Origin: Micromonospora sp. NBC_00421
Lineage (GTDB): Bacteria > Actinomycetota > Actinomycetes > Mycobacteriales > Micromonosporaceae
Direction: 5' to 3'
Assembly: GCF_036017915.1 (NCBI RefSeq)
Contig: NZ_CP107929.1
Location: forward strand, 3,600,001 to 3,664,000
DNA length: 64,000 nucleotides
The translations under genes were made by a program, and so were the position numbers. The number at the start of each line of letters is the position of its first letter. Within the stretch, counting starts at the first letter, position 1. Shown here piece by piece: positions 8,724 through 26,428 of the stretch. The notes under the pieces are model-generated. The model did not search any database and had not been told where the DNA came from. It saw only the letters and a list, made by a program, of their open reading frames with translations.

Positions 8724-9992
8724 TCAGTGCTGGTCGCGCGGTCCCGCGTACTCGACGGGACGCCCGTCGCGCGACCCGTCGCCGGCGTCTCTCGGCCCCG
8801 GCACGGCGGCAGCGCCGCAGGCGACCACGCCGCCGGAGTCGGCACCGCCGGGAGCAGCACCGCCGGGGACAGCGCCCTCGGGTACAGCGCCGTCGGGGGT
8901 GGGCGGCGCGGGTGGGGTACGGCGGCGGGGGGCGAGGCGGCGCATCATCGGCGTCTCCACCCAGCGGTGCAGGGCTGCGGCCAGCACCAGGTTCACCACC
9001 AGGAAACCGAGCACGGCCAGCGGCCCCGACCAGCCGGGCAGCCCCACGCCCCAGTGCCCGGTGAGCCGCAGCACGGTCATCATCACCAGCACGTGCACCA
9101 GGTAGAAGGCGAACGACACCTCGCCGAGCCAGATCAGTGTGCGGTGCCGCCACGGCGACCAGCGGCCCTGCACGTCCGCCCGGGCCGCCGCCGGGATGAC
9201 CAGGATGTACGCCACCGACAGCAGCGCCGCCCACATCTCGGCCGGGATCCAGTGTGCCGCCACCCAGACGGCCACGAAGAACAGGCTGGCCAGCGGCAGG
9301 CCGGGGCCCCGCCAGTGGCCACGGCGCAGCAGCTCGGCGGCGGCGACGCCCAGCCAGAACTCGGTGGAGCGGACCAGCGGGAAGACCTGGGTGAACCACC
9401 AGTTGGTGCCCTCGGGCAGCAACTGCTGGCCGGGCCAGAGCGACAGGATCACCAGCGGCACCGCCACCACCACCGCCCAGAGCACTCCGGAGCGGGCCCG
9501 CCGGATCGCCGGCAGCACCAGCGGCAGGCAGAGGTAGAAGAACAGCTCGCAGGAGAGCGACCAGCTCACGTTGTTGATGCTGTAGAAGTAACCGGGGGTG
9601 GGGTCCCAGGCCTGGACGAGGAAGAGGTTCTCCAGCGCGGCGCGGGGCACCACCGGGTCGGCGAACCACCACATCACCAGCAGCGCCACCGCCCAGGTCA
9701 GCACGTGGTTGGGATAGATCTTGGCGAGTCGGCGACGCCAGAAGTCCCGCCGCCGGTCGCCGTCGCGGGCCGACCAGACCAGCACGAAGCCACTGAGGAT
9801 GAAGAAGAACTGCACCCCGGACAGGCCGAGGGTGAACAACCAGTCGACCACCGCCTTGGCGTCCGGCTGGGCGATGATCCGCATGGTGCCGGCGTGGTAG
9901 CCGAAGACCAGCATGGCGGCGATCCAGCGCAACCCGGTCAGCGACGGCAGTCGGCTCAGCGCGGGGGACGCGGTGGTGGGCACGCTGGTCAC
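8724..9992 (-). CDS. Acyltransferase 3 family integral membrane protein (OafA-like)
   Basis: A 422-residue protein with about ten membrane segments. The N-terminal motif SLTGLRWIAAMLVFGYH places the conserved catalytic His at residue 33, and a second hallmark (FILSGFVL) follows. Members O-acylate exported glycans, lipids or antibiotics using cytoplasmic acyl-CoA. The last 70 residues are a Gly/Pro/Ala-rich tail with a short degenerate repeat (GAVPEGAVPGGAAPGGA). GTG 9992 gives the best family alignment. It is divergent from the pyruvyl transferase gene, so it may decorate the same wall polymer. Confidence 0.85.
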   Translation of the reverse strand: MTSVPTTASPALSRLPSLTGLRWIAAMLVFGYHAGTMRIIAQPDAKAVVDWLFTLGLSGVQFFFILSGFVLVWSARDGDRRRDFWRRRLAKIYPNHVLTWAVALLVMWWFADPVVPRAALENLFLVQAWDPTPGYFYSINNVSWSLSCELFFYLCLPLVLPAIRRARSGVLWAVVVAVPLVILSLWPGQQLLPEGTNWWFTQVFPLVRSTEFWLGVAAAELLRRGHWRGPGLPLASLFFVAVWVAAHWIPAEMWAALLSVAYILVIPAAARADVQGRWSPWRHRTLIWLGEVSFAFYLVHVLVMMTVLRLTGHWGVGLPGWSGPLAVLGFLVVNLVLAAALHRWVETPMMRRLAPRRRTPPAPPTPDGAVPEGAVPGGAAPGGADSGGVVACGAAAVPGPRDAGDGSRDGRPVEYAGPRDQH

Positions 9993-10171
9993 GCCGGGCA
10001 CCCTACCGGCACGCCCGTCCACCGGTGACGGGCCGGGGTGGTGCGGATGTGCCGAAGGTGTACGAAATCCCTCCACTGCCTTAACATCGCGGGACCCGTC
10101 GGTGTCGGCGCACCCGTGGGTAGGCCGGCGACCCGTCGGAGGCGCCCGGGAACGAGGAACGGAGCAGACTG

Positions 10172-11586: not shown

Positions 11587-12711
11587 GTGGTCAACCAGCC
11601 CGCGCCCACCCCGCTGCTCAGCGTCGTCGTCCCCGTCCACGGGGTGGAGGCGTACCTGCACCAGTGCCTCGACTCGGTGCGCACGGACGTCCCGGCCGAC
11701 GCGGTGGGCACAGTCGAGATCGTCGCCGTCGACGACGCCTCGCCGGACCGGTGCGGGGAACTGCTGCGCGCGTACGCGGCCACCCATCCGGGCGTACGCA
11801 CGGTGCACCTGGACCGTAACGTCGGGCTGGGTCCCGCCCGCAACGCCGGCCTGGACGTGGCCACCGGCGAGTACGTCTGGTTCGTCGACAGCGACGACTG
11901 GTTGCCGCCGGGCACCATCCCGGCGGTGCTCGACCGGCTCCGCGCGCACCGCCCCGACGTACTGATGCTCGACCACCTGCGGGTACGCGACGACGGCCGG
12001 CGGGAGGTGGACGCGAGCAGTCACCTGCTGCGCGACACCCCCGCGGTGGTCCGCCTCGCCGACCGCCCCGGGCTGCTGCGGGTGCAGCACACCGCGTGGA
12101 ACAAGGTGGTCCGCCGGGAGTACCTGAACGCGCTGGAACTGCGCTTCCACCCCGGCTGGTACGAGGACATCCCGTTCAGCAACCCACTGCTCATCGGCGC
12201 GGAACGGATCTCCGTGCTGGACCGGGTCTGCTACCTCTACCGGCAGGGCCGGCAGGGCGCGATCACCTCCACCCGCAGCGGTCGCCACTTCGACGCCTTC
12301 GACCAGTACGACAGGCTGTTCGACTGGGTCGCCCGCCGGCACCCGGACGAGCGGCTGCACGGCGAGTTGTTCACCCTGATGGTCAACCACATGCTGGTGG
12401 TGGTCGGCAACGACGGCCGACTCCATCCGCACCTGCGCCGACGCTTCTTCCACCGGGTCGCCGCGCACTACCGTCGGCACCTGCCGCCGGGCGGCTACCC
12501 GCGTCCGGGCGGGGTGGCCGGGCTCAAGCACCGGCTGGTCGGCCGGGACAACTATCTCGCGTACGCGGTGCTGCGCCAGGCGCACCGGCTGGCCGGCTGG
12601 CTCCGCCGGCCGGTCGCCGCGCCGGAGCCGCCCCCACCGGCCACCGAGCCGGCCCGCGCGGCGGACTCCCCCGCCGACCGGGACGCGCTGGCGGGTCGCG
12701 GCAGCCGGTGA
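11587..12711 (+). CDS. Family 2 glycosyltransferase
   Basis: A 374-residue GT-A enzyme. The N-terminal fold carries LLSVVVPVHGVEAYL, then EIVAVDDASPD (45-55), ARNAGLD, and the metal-binding motif DSDD at 101-104. A basic C-terminal region follows. The family adds a single sugar to a polymer or lipid carrier, and here it probably acts in the wall polymer. GTG 11587 follows a GGGTGGCGGG stretch. No better upstream start is seen. The gene lies 89 bp after the pyruvyl transferase and 69 bp before pseI, consistent with one operon. Confidence 0.85.
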   Translation: MVNQPAPTPLLSVVVPVHGVEAYLHQCLDSVRTDVPADAVGTVEIVAVDDASPDRCGELLRAYAATHPGVRTVHLDRNVGLGPARNAGLDVATGEYVWFVDSDDWLPPGTIPAVLDRLRAHRPDVLMLDHLRVRDDGRREVDASSHLLRDTPAVVRLADRPGLLRVQHTAWNKVVRREYLNALELRFHPGWYEDIPFSNPLLIGAERISVLDRVCYLYRQGRQGAITSTRSGRHFDAFDQYDRLFDWVARRHPDERLHGELFTLMVNHMLVVVGNDGRLHPHLRRRFFHRVAAHYRRHLPPGGYPRPGGVAGLKHRLVGRDNYLAYAVLRQAHRLAGWLRRPVAAPEPPPPATEPARAADSPADRDALAGRGSR

Positions 12712-12780
12712 CCGACGCGCCGGGGTCGGGGTCGGCGGGACCACGGGTACGAGTAACGAGCACAGAGAACAGGGGCGGGG

Positions 12781-13833
12781 ATGACGACGACAGTGAAGAT
12801 CGGGCCGTACGTGGTGGGGGCAGGCGAACAGCCGTTCGTGGTGGCGGAGATGTCCGGCAACCACAACGGCGACCTGGGCCGGGCGCTGGCGATCGTGGAC
12901 GCGGTGGCGGCCAGCGGGGCACACGCGCTGAAGTTGCAGACGTACCGGCCGGACACCATCACCATCGACGTGGACACCCCGGCGTTCCGCATCTCCGGCG
13001 GGCACGAGCTGTGGGGTGGGCAGAACCTCTACCGGCTCTACGAGCGGGCGCACACCCCGTACGAGTGGCACGAGCCGATCTTCGCGCGGGCCCGGGAGCG
13101 GGGGTTGACCGTCTTCTCGTCCCCCTTCGACCCGTCGGCGGTGGAGCTGCTGGAGGGGCTGGACGTCCCGGCGTACAAGATCGCCTCGTCGGAGCTGGTC
13201 GACCTGCCGCTGATCCGGCTGGTGGCGGGCACCGGCAAGCCGCTCGTCATCTCCACCGGGATGGCCACCGTCGCCGAGATCGACGCCGCGGTGCGCACCG
13301 CCCGCGACGGCGGGGCCGGTGGCATCGTGCTGCTGGCCTGCACCGCCTCCTACCCGGCCCCACCGGCGGACAGCAACCTGCGCCGGATCCCGGTGCTGGC
13401 GGACGCCTTCGGGGTGCCGGTCGGCCTGTCCGACCACACCCCCGGCATCGGGGTGCCGGTCGCCTCGGTGGCGCTGGGCGCCTGCTTCATCGAGAAGCAC
13501 GTCACCCTCGACCGGACCGACGGCGGGGTCGACTCCGACTTCTCGCTGAACCCCGACGAGTTGGCCGCCCTGGTGGTCGAGTCGGCGCGGGCACACGCCG
13601 CGCTCGGCGGCACCGCCATCGGGCCGACCCCGGCCGAACGGGAGGGGCTGCGGTTCCGCCGCTCCCTGTTCGTGGTGGACGACGTGCAGGCCGGCGACGA
13701 GGTGACCAGCGCCAACGTCCGCTCGATCCGACCGGCCGGCGGCCTACCCCCGGTGGAGATCGACCGGGTCCTCGGCCGCGCCTTCACCACCGACGTCCCC
13801 CGGGGCACCCCCCTCACCTGGAACCTCATCTGA
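12781..13833 (+). CDS. pseI: Pseudaminic acid synthase (NeuB family)
   Basis: A 350-residue enzyme that condenses 2,4-diacetamido-2,4,6-trideoxy-L-altrose with phosphoenolpyruvate. The N-terminal TIM barrel starts with FVVAEMSGNHNGDL (19-32), and the Ser-Gly-Asn-His form is typical of PseI. Metal/substrate residues sit in GLSDHTPGI (His219) and FIEKHVTLDR (His240). The loop GVDSDFS (249-255) also favours PseI. The C-terminal SAF (antifreeze-like) domain covers about 294-350. All other Pse pathway genes lie within 13 kb downstream, which supports PseI over N-acetylneuraminate synthase. Confidence 0.88.
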   Translation: MTTTVKIGPYVVGAGEQPFVVAEMSGNHNGDLGRALAIVDAVAASGAHALKLQTYRPDTITIDVDTPAFRISGGHELWGGQNLYRLYERAHTPYEWHEPIFARARERGLTVFSSPFDPSAVELLEGLDVPAYKIASSELVDLPLIRLVAGTGKPLVISTGMATVAEIDAAVRTARDGGAGGIVLLACTASYPAPPADSNLRRIPVLADAFGVPVGLSDHTPGIGVPVASVALGACFIEKHVTLDRTDGGVDSDFSLNPDELAALVVESARAHAALGGTAIGPTPAEREGLRFRRSLFVVDDVQAGDEVTSANVRSIRPAGGLPPVEIDRVLGRAFTTDVPRGTPLTWNLI

Positions 13834-13983: not shown

Positions 13984-14568
13984 TCAGGGGGCGAAGGCGA
14001 CCGTGATCACCAGGTCGGCCAGGTGCAGGGTGCGCCAGACCGCGCGGGTGTGCGGCGGTACGGACAGGCCGTGCCGCCGCCACCAGGCCGCCACCGGCAA
14101 CTCGGCCAGCTTGCAGAGGCTCTCCGCTCGGGTCCAGCGGGCCCAGAAGTCGACCGGCCCGAACCGCGCGGCCAACGCGGGCGGAACCTCGGCAGCAGCC
14201 CGCTCGGCATCGATCGCCACCCGCCAGCCGTGGTCGGCCGGGCCGTACCAACCGACGCAGCGCCCGTCGTCGAGGTGGCTACGGGTCACCGCGTACCGCA
14301 GCTCGGCGGGGGTGCCGACGCGCAGGTGCCGTTCGGCGGCGCGCAGCAGCGCCGGCACCGGCCGTGTCCCCGCAGGTGCCGGCTCACCCGGGCCATCCGC
14401 CGACTGAACCGGTCCACCTGTGGGCTGGACCTCCCCGCCCACCCCGGTCCCACTCACCCCGGTGTCGCCCGGCACGAATCCGACCGGGCCACCCCCGCCC
14501 GGCACGAACCCGGGCAGGACGCTGCCGGGTCGGTGGTCGGGTCGGGTGGGGTCAGATCGAGGCGGCAC
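13984..14568 (-). CDS. Divergent 4'-phosphopantetheinyl transferase-like protein
   Basis: A 194-residue protein. Residues 1-65 are Pro/Gly-rich and may not all be translated. The rest resembles the phosphopantetheinyl transferase superfamily: RVAIDAER corresponds to the Mg-binding GIDxE motif, and FWARWTRAESLCKL corresponds to W-x-x-K-E-x-x-x-K, with the first Lys replaced. It is last in a minus-strand run with an acyl carrier protein, an AMP-ligase and an SDR, so it could load the carrier's prosthetic arm. The GTG at 14568 overlaps the SDR end by 17 bp. A later start near 14380 is possible. Family assignment is by motif only. Confidence 0.6.
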   Translation of the reverse strand: MPPRSDPTRPDHRPGSVLPGFVPGGGGPVGFVPGDTGVSGTGVGGEVQPTGGPVQSADGPGEPAPAGTRPVPALLRAAERHLRVGTPAELRYAVTRSHLDDGRCVGWYGPADHGWRVAIDAERAAAEVPPALAARFGPVDFWARWTRAESLCKLAELPVAAWWRRHGLSVPPHTRAVWRTLHLADLVITVAFAP

Positions 14569-15298
14569 CGTCGACCACGATGACCTGGCCGTTGATGTTG
14601 GTGTGCTCGCACAGCAGCATCCGCACCACCGGTACCACCTCGGCGGGCTCGGTCAGGTGCCCGGTCGGGGTACGCCGGACGATCTGGTCGAGCTGGGTGC
14701 TGCCCAGCACGGCGGACATCTCCGAGGCGAAGAAGCCCGGGGCGACGGCGTTGACAAGCATCCGCCCGCCCAGCTCGCGGGCCAGCGAGCGGGTCGCCGC
14801 GTCCATGCCGCCCTTGGTGGCCGAGTACGCCACCAGGCCGGGGAAGCCGCGCTGCGCGCAGATCGAGGTGACGTTGACGATCCGACCGCGCCGGCCCTGG
14901 CCCAGCATCCGCCGGATCACCAGGCGGGTGAGCTGCAACGGCGCGGTCAGGTTGGTCTCGACGATCCGGACGATGTCGCCGGTGGCGGTGTGCGTGTGCA
15001 TCGAGTCCTGCCCGACGGCGGCGTTGTTCACCAGCCCGTCGACCGGGCCGAACCGCGCCTCCACCGTCCGGACGAAGCCCTGCGCTGCGGCGAGGTCGGT
15101 GACGTCCACCGCACCGACGTGCACCCGGTCGGGGTGCTCGGCGGCCAACTTCTCCAGCTCGGGGGTGACGGTACGGGCGAAGGCGGCCACCGTGAGCCCG
15201 GCGTCGAGCAGGTCGGTGACGATGGCCAGGCCCAGCCCCCGGGACCCGCCGGAGACGAGGACGACGGTGCTGGGTGGGACGAGTGTGGAGTCAGACAT
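14552..15298 (-). CDS. Short-chain dehydrogenase/reductase, FabG-like ketoreductase
   Basis: A 248-residue classical SDR. The cofactor loop is GGSRGLG (17-23), NNAA follows at about residue 90, the catalytic Ser is in NVTSICAQ, and YSATK is the Tyr/Lys pair. The C-terminus (INGQVIVVDGAAS) matches FabG-type 3-oxoacyl reductases. ATG 15298 overlaps the upstream AMP-ligase stop by 8 bp, so translation is coupled. In this cassette the likely substrate is an acyl group held on the carrier protein at 16526-16777, for example 3-keto to 3-hydroxy. That is inference. It could also reduce a sugar. Confidence 0.85.
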   Translation of the reverse strand: MSDSTLVPPSTVVLVSGGSRGLGLAIVTDLLDAGLTVAAFARTVTPELEKLAAEHPDRVHVGAVDVTDLAAAQGFVRTVEARFGPVDGLVNNAAVGQDSMHTHTATGDIVRIVETNLTAPLQLTRLVIRRMLGQGRRGRIVNVTSICAQRGFPGLVAYSATKGGMDAATRSLARELGGRMLVNAVAPGFFASEMSAVLGSTQLDQIVRRTPTGHLTEPAEVVPVVRMLLCEHTNINGQVIVVDGAASI

Positions 15299-16529
15299 CG
15301 CTCTTCAGGGTCTCCTTGACGGGGATCTCGGTCAGCAGCCGGATCCGGCGCGGTACCGCGTACTCGGGAAGCCGTTCGGCACACCAGCGCACCAGCACGC
15401 CCTCGTCCAGCGGGGCGTCCGCGTCGGCGGTGGTGGGGACGACCTCGGCGACCACCATCCGGCCGAGCACCGGCGCGCGTCGGCCGGTCACCCGGGCCCA
15501 GGCGACCCGGGGGTGGGCGGTGAGCATGTCGCGTACCAGCCCGGCGGAGACCTTGCTGCCACCGACGTTGATCTCGTCGGAGTCGAGTCGACCGGTGATC
15601 AGGACCCGGTCGTCGACGATCTGCACCCGGTCGCCGGTGCGTACCGGCCCGTCGAGCCCGACGCCGTGGTGCGGTGAGGTGATCACCAGCTCGTCGTCGT
15701 GCACCGAGAGGGTGGGCCGGCCGGGGGTCACCCGGTCGAGCCAGCCGACCGGGAAACCGGCCCGGCCGTCGTGCACCACGATCGACGCACCGACCTCGGA
15801 GGAGGCGTAGATCCAGGAGATCCGGGCGGCCGGGAAGATCTCCCGGAGCCGGTCCAGGACGGCCTGGTCGACGGGTTCGCCACCGAGGGTGAGCTGCCGC
15901 AGCGGCACCCGGGCCAGCGCCTCGGGATCGCGGTGCAGGGTGCGCCGCCAGAAGGTCGGGGTGCCGGAGGCGGCGTCGACCCCGTGCGCGGCGGCCAGCA
16001 CCGGCCAGTCGTCCAGCTCGTCCGGGTCGACCACCACCAGGTGCTGACCGGGTTGGGTGAGCGCCAGGGTGACCACCTGCCACCAGGCGTAGCTGCCGGG
16101 GGCGTACGGACAGAGCCAGGTCCGCTCGGGTTGGGCGTCGCGCACGGTGGTCAGCGAGTCGAGGGTGTGGCCGACCCGTTTGGGCCGGCCGGTCGAGCCG
16201 GAGGTGAGCAGCCAGAGCCGGCCGTTGTCCGGGGCCCGGTGCACGGCCGGCGGGACGGTCTGCGCCACCCCGTCGGCGAGCACGGTGACGGCGAAGCCGG
16301 CGGCGGCCAGCTCGTCGCGCATCGTCGGGTCGACCCGGCCGGGGCCGGCGAGCAGCAGCTCGGTGCCGTGCGTGGCGTGCTGGCGGGCGACGGCGAGCGC
16401 GTCGGCACCGGTGGCGAGGACCGCGTCGGGCGAGGGCAGCGTCGGGGTGGGCAGCTCCCGCCAGCTCCGGGCCACCCCGGCGATGACGACCCGGTTGTCC
16501 AGCCCGGCCGGTGTCGTCGCGACGGTCAC
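15291..16529 (-). CDS. AMP-dependent acyl/amino-acid ligase (short adenylation enzyme)
   Basis: A 412-residue ANL-superfamily enzyme, about 90 residues shorter than typical family members. The P-loop is LLTSGSTGRPKRVG. Later motifs are WIYASSEVGAS (in place of YGxTE), RTGDRV and GRLDSDEINVGGSKV, and the C-terminal catalytic Lys lies in ETLKSD. GTG 16529 forms a GTGA overlap with the carrier protein stop, so ligase and carrier are tightly coupled. It should activate a carboxylic or amino acid as its adenylate and load the carrier. DltA/DltC do the same with D-alanine for teichoic acids, but the SDR partner suggests a different acyl group. Confidence 0.8.
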   Translation of the reverse strand: MTVATTPAGLDNRVVIAGVARSWRELPTPTLPSPDAVLATGADALAVARQHATHGTELLLAGPGRVDPTMRDELAAAGFAVTVLADGVAQTVPPAVHRAPDNGRLWLLTSGSTGRPKRVGHTLDSLTTVRDAQPERTWLCPYAPGSYAWWQVVTLALTQPGQHLVVVDPDELDDWPVLAAAHGVDAASGTPTFWRRTLHRDPEALARVPLRQLTLGGEPVDQAVLDRLREIFPAARISWIYASSEVGASIVVHDGRAGFPVGWLDRVTPGRPTLSVHDDELVITSPHHGVGLDGPVRTGDRVQIVDDRVLITGRLDSDEINVGGSKVSAGLVRDMLTAHPRVAWARVTGRRAPVLGRMVVAEVVPTTADADAPLDEGVLVRWCAERLPEYAVPRRIRLLTEIPVKETLKSDV

Positions 16530-16777
16530 TGCCGCTGGAGTTCGGCGAGGAAGTCGAGGACGTCCCCGACGGTGGCGATCCGTCGCAGGCCGGGGGCGTC
16601 GAAGTTCAACTCCTCCCCGGTGACGTCCTCCACCCGCAGGGCGAGCTCCGAGAAGTCCAGCGAGCGGAAGCCGATCTCCCGCAGGTCGGCGGAGTCGTCG
16701 TCGGGCAGCACCCTGCCCTGGTTCTGCAACACCTGCGCCATGAGGTCGCGGATCTGCGCGCGACTCAATTCTTCCAT
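16526..16777 (-). CDS. Acyl carrier protein
   Basis: An 83-residue acidic helical protein. The attachment motif is IGFRSLDFSELALRVED, with Ser39 as the expected phosphopantetheine site (canonical G-x-D-S-L is here G-F-R-S-L). The ATG at 16777 is the first gene of the cassette carrier-ligase-SDR-PPTase-like. It is divergent from the PseH-like GNAT at 16866, with only 88 bp between the starts. This makes joint regulation with the pseudaminate genes likely. It is not the housekeeping fatty-acid AcpP, judging by context and the altered motif. Confidence 0.85.
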   Translation of the reverse strand: MEELSRAQIRDLMAQVLQNQGRVLPDDDSADLREIGFRSLDFSELALRVEDVTGEELNFDAPGLRRIATVGDVLDFLAELQRQ

Positions 16778-16865
16778 GCGGCGAAGTGTACATCCCGGCA
16801 ATTCCTTCCCCCCTTTACCGGGTAGGGTCCGCAGGGATCCACCGGGTTGACACAAAGGGGTACGA

Positions 16866-17375
16866 GTGCTGCGCGAGGCCACCACGGACGACGTTAACCT
16901 GATGTTGTCCTGGCGTAATCAGGAAACCAACCGGCAGGTCAGCAAGACCAGCCACGAGATCACCGCGGACGAGCACGCGGCCTGGTGGTCCCGGGTCCGC
17001 GTCGACCCGGCCCACCGCATCCTGATGTACGTCCACGACGGTCTGACGGTCGGCGTGGTGACCTTCTTCGACCTGCGCCTGGACGGGCCGCGGACCGCCT
17101 CGTGGGGGTTCTACCTGGACGCCGACGGGCTGGCCGAGCAGGGGGCCACCCTGCCCGCCTGGCTGGGGGTGATGCGGGCGGCGGTGGATCACGCCTTCGA
17201 CGTGCTCGCACTGGACCGCCTCGACGGCGAGGTCTTGGCGCACAATACCGCCGTACGGCAGATGAACCGTCGTTTCCGGTTTGTCGAGGGCACCCCGCGC
17301 CGGGAGACACACCACGGCCAGGAAGTCGACATAGTCCCTATTTCCCTGGCCCGGGAGAACCGCCGTCGACGATAA
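16866..17375 (+). CDS. pseH: GNAT N-acetyltransferase, probable PseH (acylates UDP-4-amino-4,6-dideoxy-N-acetyl-altrosamine)
   Basis: A 169-residue GNAT protein. The start MLREATTDDVNLMLSWRN and the following S-H-E-I-T-x-x-E-H-x-x-W-W block are characteristic of PseH/RimJ-like sugar acetyltransferases. It would acylate the 4-amino group made by PseC before PseG releases UDP. Usually acetyl-CoA is the donor. The adjacent carrier/ligase cassette raises the possibility of a different acyl donor. GTG 16866 sits in a short divergent promoter region containing TTGACA (16848-16853), which is too close to the start to act alone as its -35. Confidence 0.8.
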   Translation: MLREATTDDVNLMLSWRNQETNRQVSKTSHEITADEHAAWWSRVRVDPAHRILMYVHDGLTVGVVTFFDLRLDGPRTASWGFYLDADGLAEQGATLPAWLGVMRAAVDHAFDVLALDRLDGEVLAHNTAVRQMNRRFRFVEGTPRRETHHGQEVDIVPISLARENRRRR

Positions 17376-17488: not shown

Positions 17489-19261
17489 TCAGCGGCGACG
17501 CCAGGCGGCCCAGCGCTGCTCCGGGTTGCCGCCCAACCGGACGAACCCGTGCCGGGTGCCGTCCCAGTCGTCCGGCTCGCCGGGTGCCCACCGGGCGAAG
17601 ACCACGTCGGCGTCGGCCGGCGGGTTGTCGACGAACCACCGCACGTCGGCCCAGGTGACCTGGTGGCTGAGGTTGAACCGCAGGATCCACTGGACGCCGA
17701 GCGACGCCCAGACCCGGTCGCCGGGGCGTACCCCGACGTCGGCCACCCGTGGGGTGGGTGCGGTCGCGGCGACCATCGGCCGGACCAGCCGGTCGGTGAT
17801 CACCTGCATGGTGCCGAGGTTCACCACCACCAGCGCGGCGAGCACCGGCGCCCGCCACCGGGGCAGCCGCACTACGGCGACCAGCAGCAGGCAGCCGGCC
17901 ACCCCGACGGCCGCCCCGGTGAACGGGCGGAACTCCCGCCAGCCGCCGGTCAGCGCCATCAGGTCCGGTGCGCCGAACCCGCCGTAGCGCAACTCGTGCC
18001 CCCGGCTCGCCACCCAGGCCAGCCGGATGGCGATCAGTGTCGCGCCGGCCAGCAGCACCCCCACCGCGACCGCCACCCGCCGCCACCGTTGCCGGGGCGT
18101 CGCGGTCACCAGCATCCCCACCCCGACCAGCAGCCAGAACGGGGCGAGCATCTGCACGTACCGGCCGTAGATCGCGTCCAGCGGTTTGCTGGTGATGCCG
18201 GCCAGGATCACCGACGCGCCGGCGGCCACCCCGACGCTTGTCACAAGCGCCACCCCGAACGTCCACCGGGTCGCCCCGGCGGGGCCCTGACTCCCGGCGG
18301 GGGCCGTCGCGCCTGCGGCGGAAGCGGGGGCGGGGCGGAGCAGGATGCCTACGGCACCGGCCCAGGCGACGCCGGCCAGCCCGAAGGTGACGACGACCAG
18401 GTACCAGAGTTGGGTGGCGACCGCCGCGCCGACCCGCAGCAGCCCCGGCCCGGAGGCGACGGCCCGCACGGTGCCGCCGCCGGGCGGATCGCCCAGCAGG
18501 TAGACCCGGTCGCCGAGCAGCCGGATGACCGCCTCGTTGAGCAGCGCCAGCGCCAGCACCGGCAGCACCGCGGCGAGCACCTGCGCCGGGCTGGTCCGCC
18601 GCCGCAGGAACAGCAGCAGCACCAGCCCGACGTGCACCCCCACGATCACCAGGCCCCGGGAGTGCAGCAGGTGGAACGCCCCGACCAGCGTGCCGACCAC
18701 GGCGGCGACCAGCGGGCCGGGTCGGCGTACCCAGTGGTGCACGGCCAGCAGCCAGGCCAGCACCAGCGGTGCCAGCACCGCGTCGATCATCGCCACCCCG
18801 GCGTAGAAGACGGTCGCCGGCAGGGTGGCCGCGACGGCGGCGGCGGCCAGGGCGACCGCGCGGCGCACCGGCACCAGCCGACGCACCAGCAGGTACGCCA
18901 GCGGCAGCACCGCAGCGTTCACCGCCGCGTTGATCAGCTGCACCAGCCGGTAGCTGTCGGTGAAGTCCCGCTCACCGAGGAACGCCGGGGAGATCAGCAG
19001 CGGGTAGCCGATCCGGCGCAGCGGCCCGTTCTCGCTGCTGAACCCGCCCGGCCCACCGGCCAGCGCGCGGGCGGTGTGCAGGTAGCTGTCCTCGTCGGTG
19101 TGCGCGATGGGCAGCGGCACGTGCCGGGACAACCACATCCGCCAGCCGACCCCCAGCAGCCAGCCCACCACCAGCAACACCGGCACCAGCCGACGGCCTC
19201 GGCCGGCCGGCTGCCCGGACGGGTCGGCGATGGGGTGTCTCACCTCGGTGCCGGCCACCAT
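17489..19261 (-). CDS. Integral membrane glycosyltransferase-like protein (GT-C fold)
   Basis: A 590-residue protein with about 11-12 hydrophobic helices. An acidic motif after the first helix (HTDEDSYLHTARAL) matches the first-loop DxD/ED catalytic region of GT-C transferases such as PMT and ArnT. A second extracytoplasmic loop precedes the last helix, and a soluble C-terminal part (about 520-590) follows. These enzymes use polyprenyl-phosphate sugars outside the membrane. ATG 19261 has AGGAGG 6 nt upstream. It converges on pseH and is divergent from pseB. It may glycosylate the wall polymer, but the substrate cannot be read from sequence. Confidence 0.75.
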   Translation of the reverse strand: MVAGTEVRHPIADPSGQPAGRGRRLVPVLLVVGWLLGVGWRMWLSRHVPLPIAHTDEDSYLHTARALAGGPGGFSSENGPLRRIGYPLLISPAFLGERDFTDSYRLVQLINAAVNAAVLPLAYLLVRRLVPVRRAVALAAAAVAATLPATVFYAGVAMIDAVLAPLVLAWLLAVHHWVRRPGPLVAAVVGTLVGAFHLLHSRGLVIVGVHVGLVLLLFLRRRTSPAQVLAAVLPVLALALLNEAVIRLLGDRVYLLGDPPGGGTVRAVASGPGLLRVGAAVATQLWYLVVVTFGLAGVAWAGAVGILLRPAPASAAGATAPAGSQGPAGATRWTFGVALVTSVGVAAGASVILAGITSKPLDAIYGRYVQMLAPFWLLVGVGMLVTATPRQRWRRVAVAVGVLLAGATLIAIRLAWVASRGHELRYGGFGAPDLMALTGGWREFRPFTGAAVGVAGCLLLVAVVRLPRWRAPVLAALVVVNLGTMQVITDRLVRPMVAATAPTPRVADVGVRPGDRVWASLGVQWILRFNLSHQVTWADVRWFVDNPPADADVVFARWAPGEPDDWDGTRHGFVRLGGNPEQRWAAWRRR

Positions 19262-19604
19262 GTGTCGCCTCCTGCTTCGTGGGGTGCGCCGGTCGCCGTC
19301 AGCCCGACCGGGGTTCGCGGGGGTGCACCGTCGCCATCGGCGCGACCGGGCCGTCGCCGGACAGAACCGGTCCGACGGGGTCCTCACCGGCCGCGCCGGG
19401 CCACTGTAGTCAGCACCGTCCCCGCTGGTCAGCCGGATCTGGCGGGGGTCGGAAGTGTTCGCCCGCCGGAGGTCCGGCATTCACGGGAGCAGCGTGGGCG
19501 GTTAACCCGGGAGCGTCGGGGTGTTAACCCGACCTGGTTAGCGTCCGTCCGGTCGCCTGGCCCCGAGCCGGTGGCGCAACAACCACGAGCTGGGGAGCAC
19601 CAAA
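19262..19604. other. Divergent intergenic region upstream of pseB
   Basis: These 343 bp separate the GT-C gene from pseB, and no gene is supported. The right half becomes less GC-rich and holds the spaced GTTAACCC repeats (19501-19530) and the pseB ribosome site. It is the probable promoter region for the five-gene pse operon. Confidence 0.6.
19501..19530. promoter_or_regulatory. Direct GTTAACCC repeat, possible operator of the pse operon
   Basis: GTTAACCC occurs at 19501-19508 and again at 19523-19530, 22 bp apart (about two helical turns). It lies 75-105 bp before the pseB start. A weaker third copy (GGTTAGCG) follows at 19536. Function is inferred from spacing and position only. Confidence 0.35.
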
Positions 19605-20588
19605 TTGAGTGAGTTGAATGGGTCCTCCATTCTGATCACCGGCGGGACGGGGTCCTTCGGGAAGACGTTCCTCCGGCACGTCCTCAAGGTGGCCGACCCG
19701 GCCCGGGTGGTGGTGTTCTCCCGCGACGAACTCAAGCAGTACGAGCTGCGCCAGCAGCTCGGCGACGACCCCCGGCTGCGCTGGTTCATCGGCGACGTGC
19801 GGGACCGGCACCGGCTCACCCGGGCCATGCACGGGGTGGACCACGTGGTGCACGCCGCCGCCCTCAAGCAGGTGGACACCGCCGAGTACAACCCCTCGGA
19901 GTTCATCGCCACCAACATCACCGGCTCGCAGCACGTGGTCGACGCGGCCATCGAGGCCGGCGTCAGGAAGGTCATCGCGCTCTCCACCGACAAGGCGTCC
20001 AGCCCGATCAACCTGTACGGCGCGACCAAGCTCGTCGGTGACAAGCTCTTCGTCTCGGCCAACCACTACGCCGCCCAGCACCCCACCCGCTTCGCCGTGG
20101 TCCGCTACGGCAACGTGGTGGGCAGCCGGGGCTCGGTGGTGCCGCTGTTCCGGCGGCTCGCCGACGAGGGCAAGAGCCTGCCGATCACCGACAAGCGGAT
20201 GACCCGGTTCTGGATCACCCTGGACCAGGCGGTGCAGTTCGTGCTGGACAGCTTCGACCAGATGCAGGGCGGCGAGCTGTTCGTGCCACGCATCCCCAGC
20301 ATGCGCATCCTCGACCTGGTCGAGGCGGTCGCCCCGGAGGCCACCACGCACGAGATCGGCATCCGGCCGGGCGAGAAGCTGCACGAGGAGATGATCGCCC
20401 CGGACGACAGCCGCCGTACGCTGCGCGCGAAGGACAGGTTCATCGTCCAGCCGACGATCGCCACCTGGGGTTACCGGCCGCCTGTCGACTGCGAGCCGGT
20501 CCCGGACGGCTTCGCCTACCAGTCCGACGGCAACGACGAGTGGTTGACCGTCCCACAGCTGCGCGACATGCTCGGCATCGCGGCGTGA
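19605..20588 (+). CDS. pseB: UDP-N-acetylglucosamine 4,6-dehydratase (inverting), first step of pseudaminate synthesis
   Basis: A 327-residue extended SDR. The Rossmann loop is GGTGSFG (13-19). The triad STDKASSPINLYGATK gives Asp129, Lys130 and Tyr138, the pattern of FlaA1/PseB, which remove water and invert C5. It converts UDP-GlcNAc to UDP-2-acetamido-2,6-dideoxy-arabino-hexos-4-ulose in the cytoplasm. It starts with TTG 19605 after GGGGAG. Its stop overlaps the pseC start as GTGA (20585-20588). Length and motifs match the family well. Confidence 0.92.
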   Translation: MSELNGSSILITGGTGSFGKTFLRHVLKVADPARVVVFSRDELKQYELRQQLGDDPRLRWFIGDVRDRHRLTRAMHGVDHVVHAAALKQVDTAEYNPSEFIATNITGSQHVVDAAIEAGVRKVIALSTDKASSPINLYGATKLVGDKLFVSANHYAAQHPTRFAVVRYGNVVGSRGSVVPLFRRLADEGKSLPITDKRMTRFWITLDQAVQFVLDSFDQMQGGELFVPRIPSMRILDLVEAVAPEATTHEIGIRPGEKLHEEMIAPDDSRRTLRAKDRFIVQPTIATWGYRPPVDCEPVPDGFAYQSDGNDEWLTVPQLRDMLGIAA

Positions 20589-21742
20589 CGGCGATGCTCC
20601 CGTACGGGCGGCAGTCGGTCACCGACGACGACGTCGCCGCCGTGGTCGCCACCCTGCGCAGCGACTGGCTCACCACCGGCCCGCAGGTCGACGCCTTCGA
20701 GGCGGACCTCGCGGGCTGGACCGGCGGGGCCGGCTGCGCGGCCGTCGCCAACGGCACGGCGGCGCTGCACGTGGCGTACGCGGCGGCCGGGGTGGGACCG
20801 GGCGACGAGGTGGTGGTGCCGCCGATGACGTTCGTGGCGACCGCCAGCAGCGCGGTCGCCCTCGGCGCGCGGATCGTCTTCGCCGACGTCGAGGAGGAGA
20901 CGTTCACCCTGGACCCGGCAGCCGCCGCCGCCGCGACCACCGCCCGGACGAAGGTCGTCGCCGCCGTCGACTACGCCGGCCACCCGGCCGACTACGACGC
21001 CCTGCGCACCGCCCTGGCCGGCTCGGACGCGTTGCTGCTGGCCGACGCGGCGCACTCGATCGGGGCCACCTACCGCGGCCGACCGGTCGGGTCGCTTGCC
21101 GACCTGACCACCTTCTCGTTCTTCCCCACCAAGAACCTCACCACCGCCGAGGGCGGCGCGGTCGCCACCACCGACCCGGAGTTGCTGAAGCGGGCCCGCC
21201 GGTTCCGCAACATCGGGCTGGTCCGGGAGCGCGCCGAGCTGCGCGAGCCGGACGAGGGCGGCTGGCACCAGGAGGTGCACGAGTTCGGGTTGAACTACCG
21301 GCTGCCGGACGTGCTCTGCGCGCTGGGTCGCAGTCAGCTGCGCCGGCTCGGTGACTTCCTGGCCGCCCGCGCCCGGCTGGTGGCCCGCTACGACGAGGCG
21401 CTGGCCGACCTGCCCGGGGTGCTGACCCCGACCCGCCGGTCGTGGGCCGCCCCCGCCTGGCACCTCTACCCGGTCCGGGTCCTCGACGGCCGCCGCCGCG
21501 AGGTGTACGACCGGATGCGGGCCGCCGGCATCGGCGTACAGGTCAACTACCTGCCGGTGCACTGGCACCCGGCGTTCGCCGATCTCGGCTACCGGCGCGG
21601 GTCCTGCCCGGTGGCCGAGTCGTTCTACGGTCAGCAGCTCTCGCTGCCGCTGTATCCGAGCCTGACCGACGCCGACCAGGACCGGGTGATCGACGCGCTC
21701 GGCGCGGCGCTGCGCGGCGTCACGGCGCACACCGCCGCCTGA
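20585..21742 (+). CDS. pseC: UDP-4-amino-4,6-dideoxy-N-acetyl-beta-L-altrosamine transaminase
   Basis: A 385-residue PLP enzyme of the DegT/DnrJ/EryC1 family. The substrate loop has ANGTAALH, the cofactor aspartate lies in ADAAHS (153-158), and the Schiff-base Lys is Lys183 in FFPTKNLTTAEGG. The TTAEGG ending is typical of PseC-like members. It aminates the PseB product at C4 with glutamate as donor. GTG 20585 overlaps the pseB stop by 4 bp, showing tight coupling. The order pseB-pseC is the standard one in Campylobacter and Bacillus. Confidence 0.92.
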   Translation: MTAMLPYGRQSVTDDDVAAVVATLRSDWLTTGPQVDAFEADLAGWTGGAGCAAVANGTAALHVAYAAAGVGPGDEVVVPPMTFVATASSAVALGARIVFADVEEETFTLDPAAAAAATTARTKVVAAVDYAGHPADYDALRTALAGSDALLLADAAHSIGATYRGRPVGSLADLTTFSFFPTKNLTTAEGGAVATTDPELLKRARRFRNIGLVRERAELREPDEGGWHQEVHEFGLNYRLPDVLCALGRSQLRRLGDFLAARARLVARYDEALADLPGVLTPTRRSWAAPAWHLYPVRVLDGRRREVYDRMRAAGIGVQVNYLPVHWHPAFADLGYRRGSCPVAESFYGQQLSLPLYPSLTDADQDRVIDALGAALRGVTAHTAA

Positions 21743-22591: not shown

Positions 22592-24396
22592 CCACTGGAA
22601 CCGCCGCCCCCGTCGTCCTGCCCGGCGGGGAGATGCTGGCCTGGTCCGACCTGCCGGAGCAACGGCTGGCCGACGGTGGGCCGCTGGGCGCGCTGGCCGC
22701 CCGGGTCGTACCGGCGGGGGCGCGGGTGCTGCTGGCCGGGCCGCACGACCCGGCGCTGCTGGACCGGCTCGCCCACGCCGAGGTGACCTGCCTGCTGCGC
22801 AGCCACCCCGACGCGGTGGCGCTCACCGACCGGGCCGCCCGGGTGGTCGTCGGCGGACCCGCCGGGCTCGACCCGGCCGACACCTTCGACGTGGTGGTGG
22901 CCGGGGCCGGGCTGGACGCCGTCGAGTCGGTGGAGGGCACCAGGCTGGGCTGGACGGGGGTGCTGGGCCGGCTGGCCGCCGCCCTGCGCCCCGGCGGCAC
23001 GCTGCTGCTGCGGCTGGACAACCCGCTGGGGGTGTCCCGGCTGGTCGCCACCTCCCCCTGGTACGCCGACCGGGCCGACGCGGCGTGGAGCATCGGCGGG
23101 GTGCTCGACGCCGGCCGCCCGGCCAACCGGGAGCAACTGCGTGACCGGCTCGTCGAGGCGGGGCTGACGGTGACCGCCGACTACGCCGCGTACCCCGATC
23201 CGGGTGCCGCGACGGCGCTGGTCGCCACCGACGCGCTGGCGCACCGGCCCACGTCGGGGCTGCTCGACGCGGTGCTGCACGGCGCGTGTGCCGGTGGTTT
23301 CGCCGGTGGCCCGGTGCTCCAGGACCCGGCCCGGCTGGCGGTCGACGCGCTGCACGCCGGGCTCGGCGCGACGCTGGCCCCCGGCTGGCTGGTGACGGCC
23401 CACCGCCCCGCCGGCCACGACGAACCCGTCGCCGCGCCACTGCCGGTGGTGCTGGTGCAGACCGGGCCGCCCGGGGTCGGCGTGGTCGAGGTGACCGACG
23501 GGCCGGGCGGCTGGCAGTGGGCGGTCACCGGCGGCGGTGCCACCCGGGGTCGGGCGGCACCCTTCGCCAGCCGGGAGGCGGCCCACCGGGACCCGGCCGC
23601 GCTCACCGGACCGGTACCTGCGGGCCGGCTGCTGCGCACCCTGCTGCTCGACGGCTGCCTGCGCCGCGACCTGGACGCCCTACGCCGGCTGCTGCGCGGC
23701 TACGCGGGTTGGCTCGCCGGCCAGGCCGACCCGGAGGGGCGGCTCGCCGGCGCGACGGCGCTGGCCGACCCGGACAACGTGGTCGTCGACGGGGACGCCT
23801 TCGCGGTGCTCGACCCGAGCTGGCAGGCCACCGGACCGCTGCCCGTCGAGGTGACGCTGGCCCGGGGGCTGTGGCGGTTCGCGGTCGCCCTGCTCACCGG
23901 CGGATACGCACACCCGTGGCCGTCCACCCTGGACGTGGCCGGGCTGACAGTGGTCCTCGGCGGCGTCGCCGGGCACGACCTGGACCGGGCCACCGTCGAC
24001 GCGGCCGTCGAGACCGAGGCGGCGGTCGCCGCCGCCCTGCGCGGCCTGGACGCCGACGGGCAGGGGGCGCTCGCCACCGAACTCCGCGCGGTCGACCCCA
24101 CCGACCCGCCCGCCGGTCCGCGCAGCTACCAGCAGATGCGCGAGGCCTGGGTACGCCAGCGCGAGGAGCTGACCCGGCTCGCCGCCCTGCTGAAGTGGAC
24201 CGAGGAGCTGCTCACCTCGCGGGAACGGGCGCTGCGCCGGTCCGACGCCACGATCAACCTGCTCAGCGGCTCGCTCAGTTACCGGGTGGGCCGGCTCGCC
24301 ATCACCCCCGCCCGGCTGGCCAAGCGGGGCGCCCGGGCGGCCAAACGGCGGGCCCGCGAGGCGCTCGGCCCGAAGCCGCAGGAGGAGCAGCAGTGA
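22588..24396 (+). CDS. Large protein with SAM-methyltransferase-like N-terminus and coiled tail
   Basis: A 602-residue protein. Residues 35-200 look like a degenerate class I methyltransferase: VLLAGPHDPALLD, FDVVVAGAGLDAVE, LRPGGTLLLRLDNP. The middle (about 210-500) is unassigned, though LADPDNVVVDGDAFAVLDPSW resembles a kinase-like or phosphotransferase metal site seen in large glycan-locus proteins. The C-terminus has helices and the SLSYRVGR motif often found at the end of glycan-cluster glycosyltransferases and methyltransferases. It starts with TTG in a TTGA overlap and ends in a GTGA overlap with pseF. Confidence 0.6.
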   Translation: MTTGTAAPVVLPGGEMLAWSDLPEQRLADGGPLGALAARVVPAGARVLLAGPHDPALLDRLAHAEVTCLLRSHPDAVALTDRAARVVVGGPAGLDPADTFDVVVAGAGLDAVESVEGTRLGWTGVLGRLAAALRPGGTLLLRLDNPLGVSRLVATSPWYADRADAAWSIGGVLDAGRPANREQLRDRLVEAGLTVTADYAAYPDPGAATALVATDALAHRPTSGLLDAVLHGACAGGFAGGPVLQDPARLAVDALHAGLGATLAPGWLVTAHRPAGHDEPVAAPLPVVLVQTGPPGVGVVEVTDGPGGWQWAVTGGGATRGRAAPFASREAAHRDPAALTGPVPAGRLLRTLLLDGCLRRDLDALRRLLRGYAGWLAGQADPEGRLAGATALADPDNVVVDGDAFAVLDPSWQATGPLPVEVTLARGLWRFAVALLTGGYAHPWPSTLDVAGLTVVLGGVAGHDLDRATVDAAVETEAAVAAALRGLDADGQGALATELRAVDPTDPPAGPRSYQQMREAWVRQREELTRLAALLKWTEELLTSRERALRRSDATINLLSGSLSYRVGRLAITPARLAKRGARAAKRRAREALGPKPQEEQQ

Positions 24397-25250
24397 CCGG
24401 ACCGGACACTGAGCCGACGGGTCGGCCCGGCAGCGCCGACACCCCGGCGACGGGCCGACCCGGGAAGGCCGACACCCCCGGGCGCGGCGCGGTCGCACCG
24501 GCCGGGTTGCCCGGCTCCGGCACCCGCATCGTCGGGATCGTGCAGGCCCGGATGGGCTCGTCCCGGCTGCCCGGCAAGGTGCTGCGCCCACTGGCCGGGC
24601 GCAGCGTCCTCGGCCGGGTGGTCCGGGCCGCCCTCGACAGCGGGGTCCTCGCCGACCTGGTGGTCGCCACCAGCGTCGACCCGGTCGACGACGCGGTGGT
24701 CGCCGAGTGCGCACGGCTCGACGTGCCCGTGCACCGGGGGCCGGTGGACGACGTGCTGAGCCGGTTCGTCGGCGCGCTCGACGCCCACCCCGGCGACGCC
24801 GTCATGCGGTTCACCGCGGACTGCCCGCTGCTCGACCCGGAGATCGTCGCGCTGGTGGCGGGGGTCTACCGGGCGGTCCCCGGGCTCGACTACGCCAGCA
24901 CCTCGATCGCCCGTACCCTGCCCCGGGGGCTGGACGTGGAGATAATCCGGGCGGATACGCTGCGTACCCTCGACCGGCTCGCCACCGACCACCACCGGGT
25001 GCACGTCACCTCGTACGCGTACACCCGTCCGGAGCTGTTCCGGGTGCTCGGGGTGACCCTCACCCCGGACAGGTCGGCGCTGCGGCTCACCCTCGACACC
25101 GAGCAGGACTGGACGCTTGTCAGTGCGGTCGTCGACCACTTCGGCGACGTCAGCGTGCCGCTTGCCAAACTCGCCGATTGGTTGGACGGGCGACCCACCC
25201 TGCGTACCCTCAACTCCTCGGTACGCCAGAAGCGGCTGGAGGAGTCCTGA
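24393..25250 (+). CDS. pseF: CMP-pseudaminate cytidylyltransferase (SpsF/PseF-like)
   Basis: A 285-residue protein. Residues 1-45 are a Gly/Pro/Thr-rich extension with a short internal repeat. The nucleotidyltransferase domain (46-285) begins with IVGIVQARMGSSRLPGKV and continues with MRFTADCPLLDPE, the CMP-sugar synthase signature, and YASTSIARTLPRGLDVEI. It activates pseudaminic acid with CTP. GTG 24393 is preceded by GGAGGAG and overlaps the previous stop as GTGA, so the odd N-terminus is probably translated. In the SpsF type the C-terminal PseG hydrolase is separate, as here (25247). Confidence 0.82.
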   Translation: MTGPDTEPTGRPGSADTPATGRPGKADTPGRGAVAPAGLPGSGTRIVGIVQARMGSSRLPGKVLRPLAGRSVLGRVVRAALDSGVLADLVVATSVDPVDDAVVAECARLDVPVHRGPVDDVLSRFVGALDAHPGDAVMRFTADCPLLDPEIVALVAGVYRAVPGLDYASTSIARTLPRGLDVEIIRADTLRTLDRLATDHHRVHVTSYAYTRPELFRVLGVTLTPDRSALRLTLDTEQDWTLVSAVVDHFGDVSVPLAKLADWLDGRPTLRTLNSSVRQKRLEES

Positions 25251-26428
25251 ACCCACCACGGATCGGGTTACGCTGCGACGCCGGCCCGCGCACCGGCGTC
25301 GGTCACCTGGTCCGCTGCCTGGCCCTCGGCGAGGAGTTCCTGACCCGGGGCGCCCGGGTCGAACTGTTCGGCACGGTGCACCGGGTCGGCTGGGCCGCCG
25401 CCCAACTGGCCACGCGCGACATCCCGGTCCACCCCGGTCCGGACACCCCCGCCGGGCTGGTGGAGACGGCCCACCGGCACGCCCTGGACGCGCTGGTGCT
25501 CGACTCGTACGAGCTGGATCCGGCCGGGGCCGGGGCGCTGCGGGCGGCCGGCGTGGTCACCCTGGCCATCGTCGACGGCGACACCCGGGGCCAGGACGCC
25601 GACCTCTACCTCGACCAGAACTTCGGCGCGGACACCGACGCCACCGGTCAGGCGGATGGCCGTCCCGCCGTCCCGGCCCGCAGCGCGCCCACCGCCGACG
25701 CACCCGGCGACGGGCGGGGCTCGGCCGGCGCTGGCGACAGGCGGGTCCTGGCCGGCGCTGGCGACAGGCGGATGCTGGCCGGGGTCCGGTACGCGCTGCT
25801 GCGTGGCTCGGTGACCGCCGCCCGGCCGGCCGTCCCACCGCCGGCCACCCCCACCGCCCGCCCCCGGGTGCTCGCCTTCTTCGGCGGCACCGACGCGGTC
25901 GGCGCGGCCCCGGTGCTGGCCCGGGTGCTGCTCGGCACCGGCCATCCGATGACGTTGACGGTGGTGGTCGGGCGGCCGGAGATCGAGGCGGAGCTGACCC
26001 GGGTCACCCCCGGGCGGGGGCAGTCGCTGCACCTCGTCGCGCCGACCGACACCCTGCCCACGTTGATCGGCGCAGCCGACCTGGTGGTCAGCGCCGCCGG
26101 CACCTCCACCTGGGAACTCTGCTGTCTCGGTGCACCCGCCGCACTTGTCTGCGTGGTGGACAACCAGCGTGACTCGTACCGCCGGGTGGTGGCGCACGGG
26201 CTCGCCGCCGGCCTCGGCGAGCTGCCGGAACTGGTCGCGCCGGGGCTGGCCGGACGGACCGCGCGGGCCGAGGCGGCCCGGACGCTGCGCGCGCTGTTGG
26301 CGTCCCCGCAGCGACGGGCGGCGCTCGCGGCCCGCGCCTGGGCCACCGTCGACGGGCACGGCCGGGCCCGGGTCGCGGACGCCGTCCTCACCCTGATCGC
26401 AAGTCGTACGGGTGTACTAAAGCCCTGA
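25247..26428 (+). CDS. pseG: UDP-2,4-diacetamido-2,4,6-trideoxy-beta-L-altropyranose hydrolase
   Basis: A GT-B-like nucleotide-sugar hydrolase of 393 residues. The N-terminus IGLRCDAGPRTGVGHLVRCL holds the catalytic His and the R-C-x-x-L of PseG. The C-terminal half has FFGGTDAVG and DLVVSAAGTSTWELCCLGAP, the UDP-binding region. It releases UDP before PseI acts. No ATG, GTG or TTG fits the N-terminus. The only reasonable start is CTG 25247, which forms a CTGA overlap with the pseF stop and has GGAGGA just upstream. An insert at about residues 130-185 contains a tandem 9-residue duplication absent from most homologues. Confidence 0.82.
   Translation: MNPPRIGLRCDAGPRTGVGHLVRCLALGEEFLTRGARVELFGTVHRVGWAAAQLATRDIPVHPGPDTPAGLVETAHRHALDALVLDSYELDPAGAGALRAAGVVTLAIVDGDTRGQDADLYLDQNFGADTDATGQADGRPAVPARSAPTADAPGDGRGSAGAGDRRVLAGAGDRRMLAGVRYALLRGSVTAARPAVPPPATPTARPRVLAFFGGTDAVGAAPVLARVLLGTGHPMTLTVVVGRPEIEAELTRVTPGRGQSLHLVAPTDTLPTLIGAADLVVSAAGTSTWELCCLGAPAALVCVVDNQRDSYRRVVAHGLAAGLGELPELVAPGLAGRTARAEAARTLRALLASPQRRAALAARAWATVDGHGRARVADAVLTLIASRTGVLKP
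25724..25777 (+). repeat. 27-bp tandem duplication inside pseG
   Basis: Two copies of a 27-bp unit (25724-25750 and 25751-25777) differ only near the end and encode AGAGDRRVL and AGAGDRRML. A partial third copy begins at 25778. It keeps the frame and lies in a linker-like insert between the two GT-B halves. Confidence 0.85.

Follow-up and report, generated by a model that had tools for sequence, protein, structure and literature searches.

Carrier-protein genes next to genes of pseudaminic acid (Pse) biosynthesis have been described before. Group II flagellar glycosylation islands of Aeromonas contain an acyl carrier protein (ACP), a 3-oxoacyl-ACP reductase and an AMP-dependent synthetase together with LuxE and LuxC beside pseH, and islands of Enterobacteriaceae hold genes similar to this set. 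In the accessible parts of these reports, a liposugar component is what the authors suggest for Aeromonas, putative fatty acid synthesis is the only role given to the ACP, ligase and reductase genes of flagellar glycosylation islands, and neither a coupling of acyl-ACP to an acyltransferase of the GNAT family, nor a phosphopantetheinyl transferase (PPTase), nor a cassette-specific PseH is mentioned. Here, we describe a gene cassette that resembles this module in the pse locus of Micromonospora sp. NBC_00421. The sequence examined, termed the window in the following, is a stretch of 64,000 nucleotides (positions 3600001–3664000 of a 7.23 Mb single-contig genome; 72% G+C). Between PseI and PseB, open reading frame (ORF) calls and profile searches revealed four genes on the minus strand encoding an ACP, an AMP-forming ligase, a FabG-like short-chain dehydrogenase/reductase (SDR) and a PPTase-like ORF. 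These four genes and the PseH-like GNAT that faces them are best read as one acyl-transfer module of the Pse pathway.

The acyl group at N-7 of Pse is known to vary with the exchange of a PseH-type gene. In Acinetobacter, 3-hydroxybutyryl on Pse accompanies a swap of the acyltransferase/hydrolase pair between psaGH and psaDE modules, and the psb locus of Shigella boydii corresponds to Pse5Ac7(3-hydroxybutanoyl). As listed in the available parts of these papers, the modules include neither carrier nor ligase nor SDR. In Micromonospora, unlike in this acyltransferase/hydrolase swap, the exchange comprises the GNAT, PseI and the cassette and does not include PseG. A further related enzyme is FdhC (PDB 5kta, 5ktc), by its title a GNAT for an amino sugar and a hydroxyacyl group, which the window GNAT matches by profile (5.5e-5) and by fold; FdhC, known here from the PDB titles only, differs in its sugar and in that CoA is named as a product. 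For Campylobacter, one table labels Cj1308 as putative acyl carrier protein.

Compared to the Aeromonas module, the window cassette likewise has an ACP, a FabG-like SDR and an AMP-forming ligase beside pseH, but it lacks LuxE and LuxC, has a different, short ligase and a carrier with RSL in place of DSL, and adds the small PPTase-like gene and a GNAT type of its own. Because LuxE and LuxC are missing and carrier and ligase differ, the cassette resembles the Aeromonas module without being a member of it. An earlier note, made from the sequence alone, knew of no described system with this set. This has to be narrowed: carrier-protein modules beside pseH are already known, and the window cassette is a distinct variant, for which the Aeromonas papers, as far as accessible, offer no counterpart to the PPTase-like gene or the cassette-specific PseH. 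No description of the window cassette was found in the accessible parts of the literature, including PMC7874193, PMC4875605, PMC4363471, PMC7439481, PMC9912281, PMC9676051, PMC3628348, PMC13317340, PMC6338021, PMC3283744 and PMC4964394, and a literature search on pseudaminic acid in Micromonospora gave nothing on topic, judged by title.

Pairing of the cassette with one GNAT type

The cassette genes are tightly packed. The ACP (16526–16777, minus strand, ATG, 83 residues) is followed by the ligase (15291–16529, minus strand, GTG, 412 residues), the SDR (14552–15298, minus strand, ATG, 248 residues) and the PPTase-like ORF (open frame 13984–14568, minus strand, GTG, 194 residues as opened; conserved part 13984–14358, 124 residues). 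The ACP stop and the ligase start share 4 bases, the ligase stop and the SDR start share 8 bases, and the SDR and the PPTase-like ORF overlap by 17 bases if the latter starts at 14568. On the opposite strand, the GNAT (16866–17375, plus strand, 169 residues) is oriented divergently, its start codon lying 88 bp from that of the ACP. The ORF coordinates thereby confirm the arrangement described in the earlier note, i.e., a minus-strand run with overlapping starts and stops that diverges from a PseH-like transferase. The run is flanked by the pseudaminic acid synthase PseI (12781–13833, plus strand; TIGR03586, 452 bits, cut-off 340) and by the inverting UDP-GlcNAc 4,6-dehydratase PseB (19605–20588, plus strand; TIGR03589, 492 bits, cut-off 408).

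A sample of 81 genomes of the genus was searched for the ligase, PseI and the GNAT. The ligase is present in 34 and PseI in 46 of them, one (G060) with a partial copy. All ligase genomes except the draft G051 encode PseI (33/34; Fisher p 7.7e-11), with a distance between both genes of 1.2–4.4 kb in 29 of the 34 and a location on different contigs in four drafts. The earlier note had proposed that the cassette builds an acyl group for Pse and had regarded this as refuted if the GNAT strictly used acetyl-CoA and the cassette were absent beside pse genes in relatives; the second half of this objection fails since the cassette does adjoin pse genes in relatives. The GNAT identities to the window protein are distributed in two peaks, 69–99% in 34 genomes and 43–52% in 12, with nothing in between. 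The 34 genomes of the upper peak (type A) are exactly the 34 ligase genomes; among the 81 genomes neither a type A GNAT without the ligase nor a ligase without a type A GNAT was found. This supports the view that the cassette is tied to a single GNAT type, as would be expected if the GNAT uses the cassette product.

The gene content was compared in 50 fetched ligase-bearing loci, of which 43 are from Micromonospora (32 of the 34 genus genomes and 11 more) and seven from at least four other lineages. G039, whose cassette is interrupted by a contig end, and G051, which was not fetched, were left out; the loci L036–L042, which derive partly from the same genomes, were not counted again, and L043 and L046, the latter with a ligase match of 35% in the C-terminal domain only, enter no cassette count. 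ACP and SDR are present in 50/50 loci, the PPTase-like gene in 45/50, the GNAT, listed directly beside the ACP, in 50/50, and PseI in 45/50, the five misses being drafts. The minus-strand gene set is more than a chance association.

The 12 genomes of the lower identity peak (type B) contain the same pse locus without the cassette. Their GNAT adjoins PseI on the GT2 side, and synteny with the window extends over PseB, PseC and the flanking genes. In six of the 12 loci (L067–L070, L076 and L077) the gap between PseI and PseB is filled by a complete lux-type module, i.e., ACP (DSL), SDR, AMP ligase, LuxE and LuxC, the same five-gene set as in Aeromonas; tblastn detected all five genes in all six loci, and Pfam recognized LuxE in two and LuxC in one. 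From the remaining six loci, L071 has an ACP match, L072 an ACP match and an SDR fragment, L073 a weak partial SDR match, and three have none of these. Type B GNATs thus occur with or without the lux-type module, as six loci carry it and it is absent or reduced in the others, and the remnants in L071 and L072 suggest that the module can disappear from a locus that keeps its type B GNAT. LuxE and LuxC gave no match in any of the 20 type A loci scanned. Hence, there is one syntenic Micromonospora pse locus with one slot and three fillings, and the GNAT type follows the filling. This makes Micromonospora a natural experiment on what ACP, ligase and SDR genes do in nonulosonic acid loci. The genome G060, with its partial PseI and no GNAT match, stands outside the 12 type B genomes; its partial pse locus (L078) shows 133 aligned residues of PseI and a short PseB match.

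Cassette proteins and GNAT residues

The ACP is recognized by PF00550 (24.0 bits, cut-off 20.8), and its attachment serine S39 is conserved in 50/50 cassette loci. In all 50, this serine is flanked as R-S-L and not as D-S-L, the canonical motif around the phosphopantetheine serine of carrier proteins. The R-S-L motif is also found in all 120 listed of 1,235 database homologues of the ACP. By source name, Kribbella, Actinoplanes and others are among the carriers of close ACP homologues; wall polymers resembling Pse occur in Kribbella. The ligase combines PF00501 (68.8 bits) and PF13193 (43.9 bits), retains the P-loop TSG[ST]T in 50/50 loci and K409 in 49/50, the remaining row showing a gap, and matches annotated Micromonospora proteins with up to 87% identity. 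For this enzyme, activation of an acid and loading of the carrier are proposed. D-Alanylation by DltA/DltC relies on an adenylating ligase and a dedicated small carrier protein, and the window cassette likewise pairs such a ligase with such a carrier; it differs in that no DltB-type partner was recognized in the cassette, and DltA is not among the best 25 of the 58 NCBIfam rows of the ligase. The SDR is matched by PF00106 (155.4 bits), and its top NCBIfam row is the 3-oxoacyl-ACP reductase TIGR01830 (167 bits, below the cut-off of 297.75). We propose that it reduces or oxidizes the carrier-bound acyl group.

For the last gene, the earlier designation as PPTase-like is supported by predicted fold and motif, although family models give no match. 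No Pfam or NCBIfam model matched the ORF in profile searches, and PF01648 was missed by the window ORF and by two distant homologues (no Pfam family at E <= 0.001). The AlphaFold2 model of 13984–14358 (pLDDT 94.5) shows a PPTase-like fold, and the 44 best VIA-align rows for this model are PPTases, AcpS or fungal fatty acid synthases with a PPT domain. PPTases of the AcpS/Sfp type are characterized by the motifs DxE and WTxxExxxK. The corresponding DxE...WTRxExxxK pattern (D50-x-E52, W75-T-R-x-E79-xxx-K83) is invariant in 23/23 aligned proteins. As the conserved part begins near 14358, it is doubtful whether the first approximately 70 residues of the open frame belong to the protein. Outside Micromonospora, the gene adjoins the cassette or lies close to it in three of the seven loci. 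A genome search was positive in 5/8 cassette genomes and in 0/12 cassette-less genomes, with the best 150 candidates per genome scored in 19/20 genomes, so that absences are not exhaustive; the gene was not found in three genomes of the genus g247 among the best 150 of 235–275 candidates. In Raineyella (L044), a transposase-like ORF pair (12150–13612, judged by eye) separates the SDR from a displaced PPTase-like gene. The Micromonospora genome itself has five PF01648 (AcpS/Sfp-type PPTase) matches, one of which lies in the window, apart from the cassette (47427–47699, minus strand).

The window GNAT scores 68.4 bits against the PseH model TIGR03585, which is below the curated cut-off of 93.1. 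Three type B GNATs (82.2–90.9) and that of Raineyella (74.5) also stay below it, and that of G386 (93.4) is just above. The fold of the window GNAT resembles the solved PseH structures (PDB 4ri1, 4xpk). Two residues distinguish the types: R131 and N134 are present in 50/50 cassette-linked GNATs, L131 and H134 in 12/12 cassette-less ones. N134 is aligned to Tyr138 of Helicobacter pylori PseH, which was proposed as its general acid in the accessible part of the respective report, and the position of Lys133, described there as holding the CoA pyrophosphate, is occupied by Val, Ala or Gly in the 50 cassette-linked proteins. Moreover, compared to PseH a longer loop, GLxxRGxxLPAW, is located near the CoA pyrophosphate site. 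The altered loop and the missing Lys are common to type A and type B, and the CoA-binding residues were for this reason dropped as an indicator of the donor.

Gene trees and cassettes outside the genus

Within the genus, trees were calculated for 12 shared genes from 29 type A and 12 type B genomes, with fewer for some genes, since proteins outside 0.75–1.5 times the query length were dropped (7 to 29 type A and 9 to 12 type B proteins per tree). A clean split between the types was obtained for the GNAT (support 1.0, branch 1.24) and for PseI (1.0, 0.078); 2OG was split weakly (0.776, 0.015), and AT3, PyrTf, GT2, PseB, PseC, ORF21755, ORF22588, PseF and PseG not at all. These splits imply that the steps before acylation do not follow the cassette, whereas acyl transfer and the condensation by PseI do. 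In a concatenated quick tree of five neighbouring genes (39 genomes having at least four of the five, 28 type A and 11 type B), three changes of type are needed and a single type A clade is rejected (p-AU 0.0024). Purely vertical divergence of the locus as a whole was rejected, as nine of the twelve genes are unsplit and the neighbour tree rejects one type A clade.

In wider draws, the ligase was found in 3/396 genomes of the phylum and in 25/200 genomes of the family, the latter from 3 of 44 genera. The seven loci from other lineages belong to Raineyella, a Frankiaceae metagenome-assembled genome (MAG), G386, three genomes of g247 and one of g274. ACP, ligase and SDR are located beside the GNAT and PseI in all seven; the gene order of g274 is that of the window with PseI inverted, and the other six have PseI behind the GNAT. 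In an unrooted GNAT tree of 40 rows (21 type A, 12 type B and the seven other loci), the GNATs of the four loci from g247 and g274, which represent two further genera of the family, cluster with type A (97/91) and away from type B, and a constraint uniting the Micromonospora type A and type B GNATs is rejected (p-AU 0.0005). For PseB and PseI, by contrast, similarity inside the genus is much higher than to the other loci. The two types share 91.5% identity in PseB and 83.4% in PseI, compared to 74–76.5% for PseB of the four other loci having it in the stretch and 60–70% for PseI of the other loci. Because of this contrast, it follows that the GNAT follows the cassette and not the species in the family. 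The wider expectation that all cassette-linked GNATs from outside the genus group with type A was given up; it holds for these four loci of two genera, and the other three are intermediate.

Proposed acyl transfer and rival explanations

That GNAT and cassette share a function is supported by their exclusive pairing, by the GNAT tree within the family and by the signature residues. Going further, we consider it probable that the cassette makes a non-acetyl acyl-ACP and that the type A GNAT places its acyl group on the 4-amino group that becomes N-7 of Pse; pairing and signature residues carry this estimate. In such a route, phosphopantetheine would be added to the RSL carrier either by the small PPTase-like protein of the cassette or by a housekeeping PPTase, the ligase would adenylate a carboxylic acid and load it onto the carrier, and the FabG-like SDR would adjust the acyl group, most likely by reduction of a 3-oxo to a 3-hydroxy group. 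The type A GNAT would then transfer the carrier-bound acyl group, in place of acetyl, to the 4-amino group of UDP-4-amino-4,6-dideoxy-AltNAc, and PseG, PseI and PseF would convert the product to CMP-Pse with a non-acetyl acyl group on N-7. We infer each of these enzymatic steps, the direct use of acyl-ACP and the identity of the acyl group. That a PseH-type GNAT has a dedicated acyl-ACP as its direct acyl donor is a more tentative proposal, for which our confidence falls somewhat short of even. As to the acid, 3-hydroxybutyryl would be possible via the SDR and was demoted, the Acinetobacter modules for that Pse listing no such cassette in the accessible source; because 3-hydroxybutyryl reaches Pse elsewhere without a cassette, a rarer acid that is not supplied as a thioester by primary metabolism would be expected.

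If acyl-ACP is the donor, the 4-N acylation of nucleotide-activated Pse precursors would be a carrier-protein step, which would widen the donor range of the PseH family and provide a tool for N-7 acyl variants of Pse. The slot between pseI and pseB would be swappable, holding this module, the lux-type module or nothing. It would moreover contain a minimal PPTase of approximately 124 residues matched to an RSL carrier, i.e., a compact enzyme for an atypical carrier missed by the curated models used.

Several observations weigh against this route. PseG also handles the acylated sugar and acts between the GNAT and PseI, yet its tree is not split by the cassette, which counts against simple co-adaptation; GNAT, cassette and PseI are neighbours, and their co-inheritance may be linkage. 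The type B GNATs also lack the canonical Tyr and Lys, so that a switch of the donor cannot be read from these positions, and type A keeps R17, E122 and N127, which are aligned to PseH residues contacting the acceptor or CoA. The top structural matches include SpeG, an acetyl-CoA enzyme of another kind, tied with PseH, and GNATs can use larger acyl-CoA molecules, the title of 5ktc naming CoA and a 3-hydroxybutanoylamino sugar as products of FdhC. The PPTase-like gene is missing beside four of the seven cassettes outside Micromonospora and thus is not indispensable. The GNATs of Raineyella, G386 and the Frankiaceae MAG fall between type A and type B in the unrooted tree, with identities of 41.8–47.6% to type A and 45.0–46.6% to type B (Raineyella 41.8% to A and 45.6% to B), and being intermediate, they are placed on the type A side by their signature residues. 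Finally, a Nocardioides locus (L043, 9986–11212) contains a ligase of 60% identity with no matches to ACP, GNAT or PseI; this ligase adjoins a glycosyltransferase-like gene.

Among the rival explanations, the one that survives best, albeit unlikely, is that the GNAT is a divergent PseH using acetyl-CoA and that the acyl group of the cassette is passed to a hydroxyl group of Pse or to another residue of the polymer, by the type A membrane protein or another enzyme. The retained CoA contact N127, a largely kept R92-G93 turn and the nearest folds, which are acetyl-CoA GNATs including PseH and SpeG, would fit this. A candidate enzyme is the putative membrane protein at 17489–19480 (minus strand; judged by eye from hydrophobic stretches, no Pfam family), which within Micromonospora is restricted to type A loci (39/43, compared to 0/12 cassette-less loci), but it is absent from the other 4/43 and from all seven cassette loci of other lineages, while the GNAT is missing from 0/50. 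A second candidate, the Acyltransferase_3 protein (8724–10076, minus strand; PF01757), was rejected as a cassette-specific acceptor enzyme since its gene is common to 9/12 cassette-less pse loci; the alternative of the earlier note, transfer to the polymer through the membrane acyltransferase, is not supported for the same reason. Above all, acetyl-CoA use by the GNAT leaves it unexplained that GNAT type and signature residues follow the cassette.

It is rather improbable that the product of ligase, ACP and SDR is released as acyl-CoA or free acid and that the GNAT takes a larger acyl-CoA as donor, apparently like FdhC. Profile searches recognized no transacylase or thioesterase in the cassette, and the Lys contacting the CoA pyrophosphate in PseH is replaced in all 50 cassette-linked GNATs, though type B lacks it as well. 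A small secondary-metabolite cassette that came to the pse locus by chance and travels by linkage is very improbable: carrier, ligase, reductase and PPTase are standard parts of metabolite pathways, linkage could produce the co-segregation and the Nocardioides ligase stands apart from pse genes, but at least four other lineages have the set adjoining GNAT and PseI, mostly in a different gene order, and none of the 81 genus genomes has the ligase without a type A GNAT.

The remaining pathway genes of the window are all encoded on the plus strand downstream of PseB. They comprise a PseC-like aminotransferase (20540–21742; TIGR03588, 401 bits, below the cut-off of 423.5), a cytidylyltransferase in the position of PseF (24393–25250; PF02348, CTP_transf_3, with a weak PseF match of 29 bits) and a PseG-like UDP-sugar hydrolase with an uncertain start codon (25247–26428; TIGR03590, 129 bits, below the cut-off of 153.6). 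Near the pse locus, the window also contains DNA gyrase subunit B (29631–33353, minus strand, 1240 residues) with an inserted intein splicing domain (PF14890).

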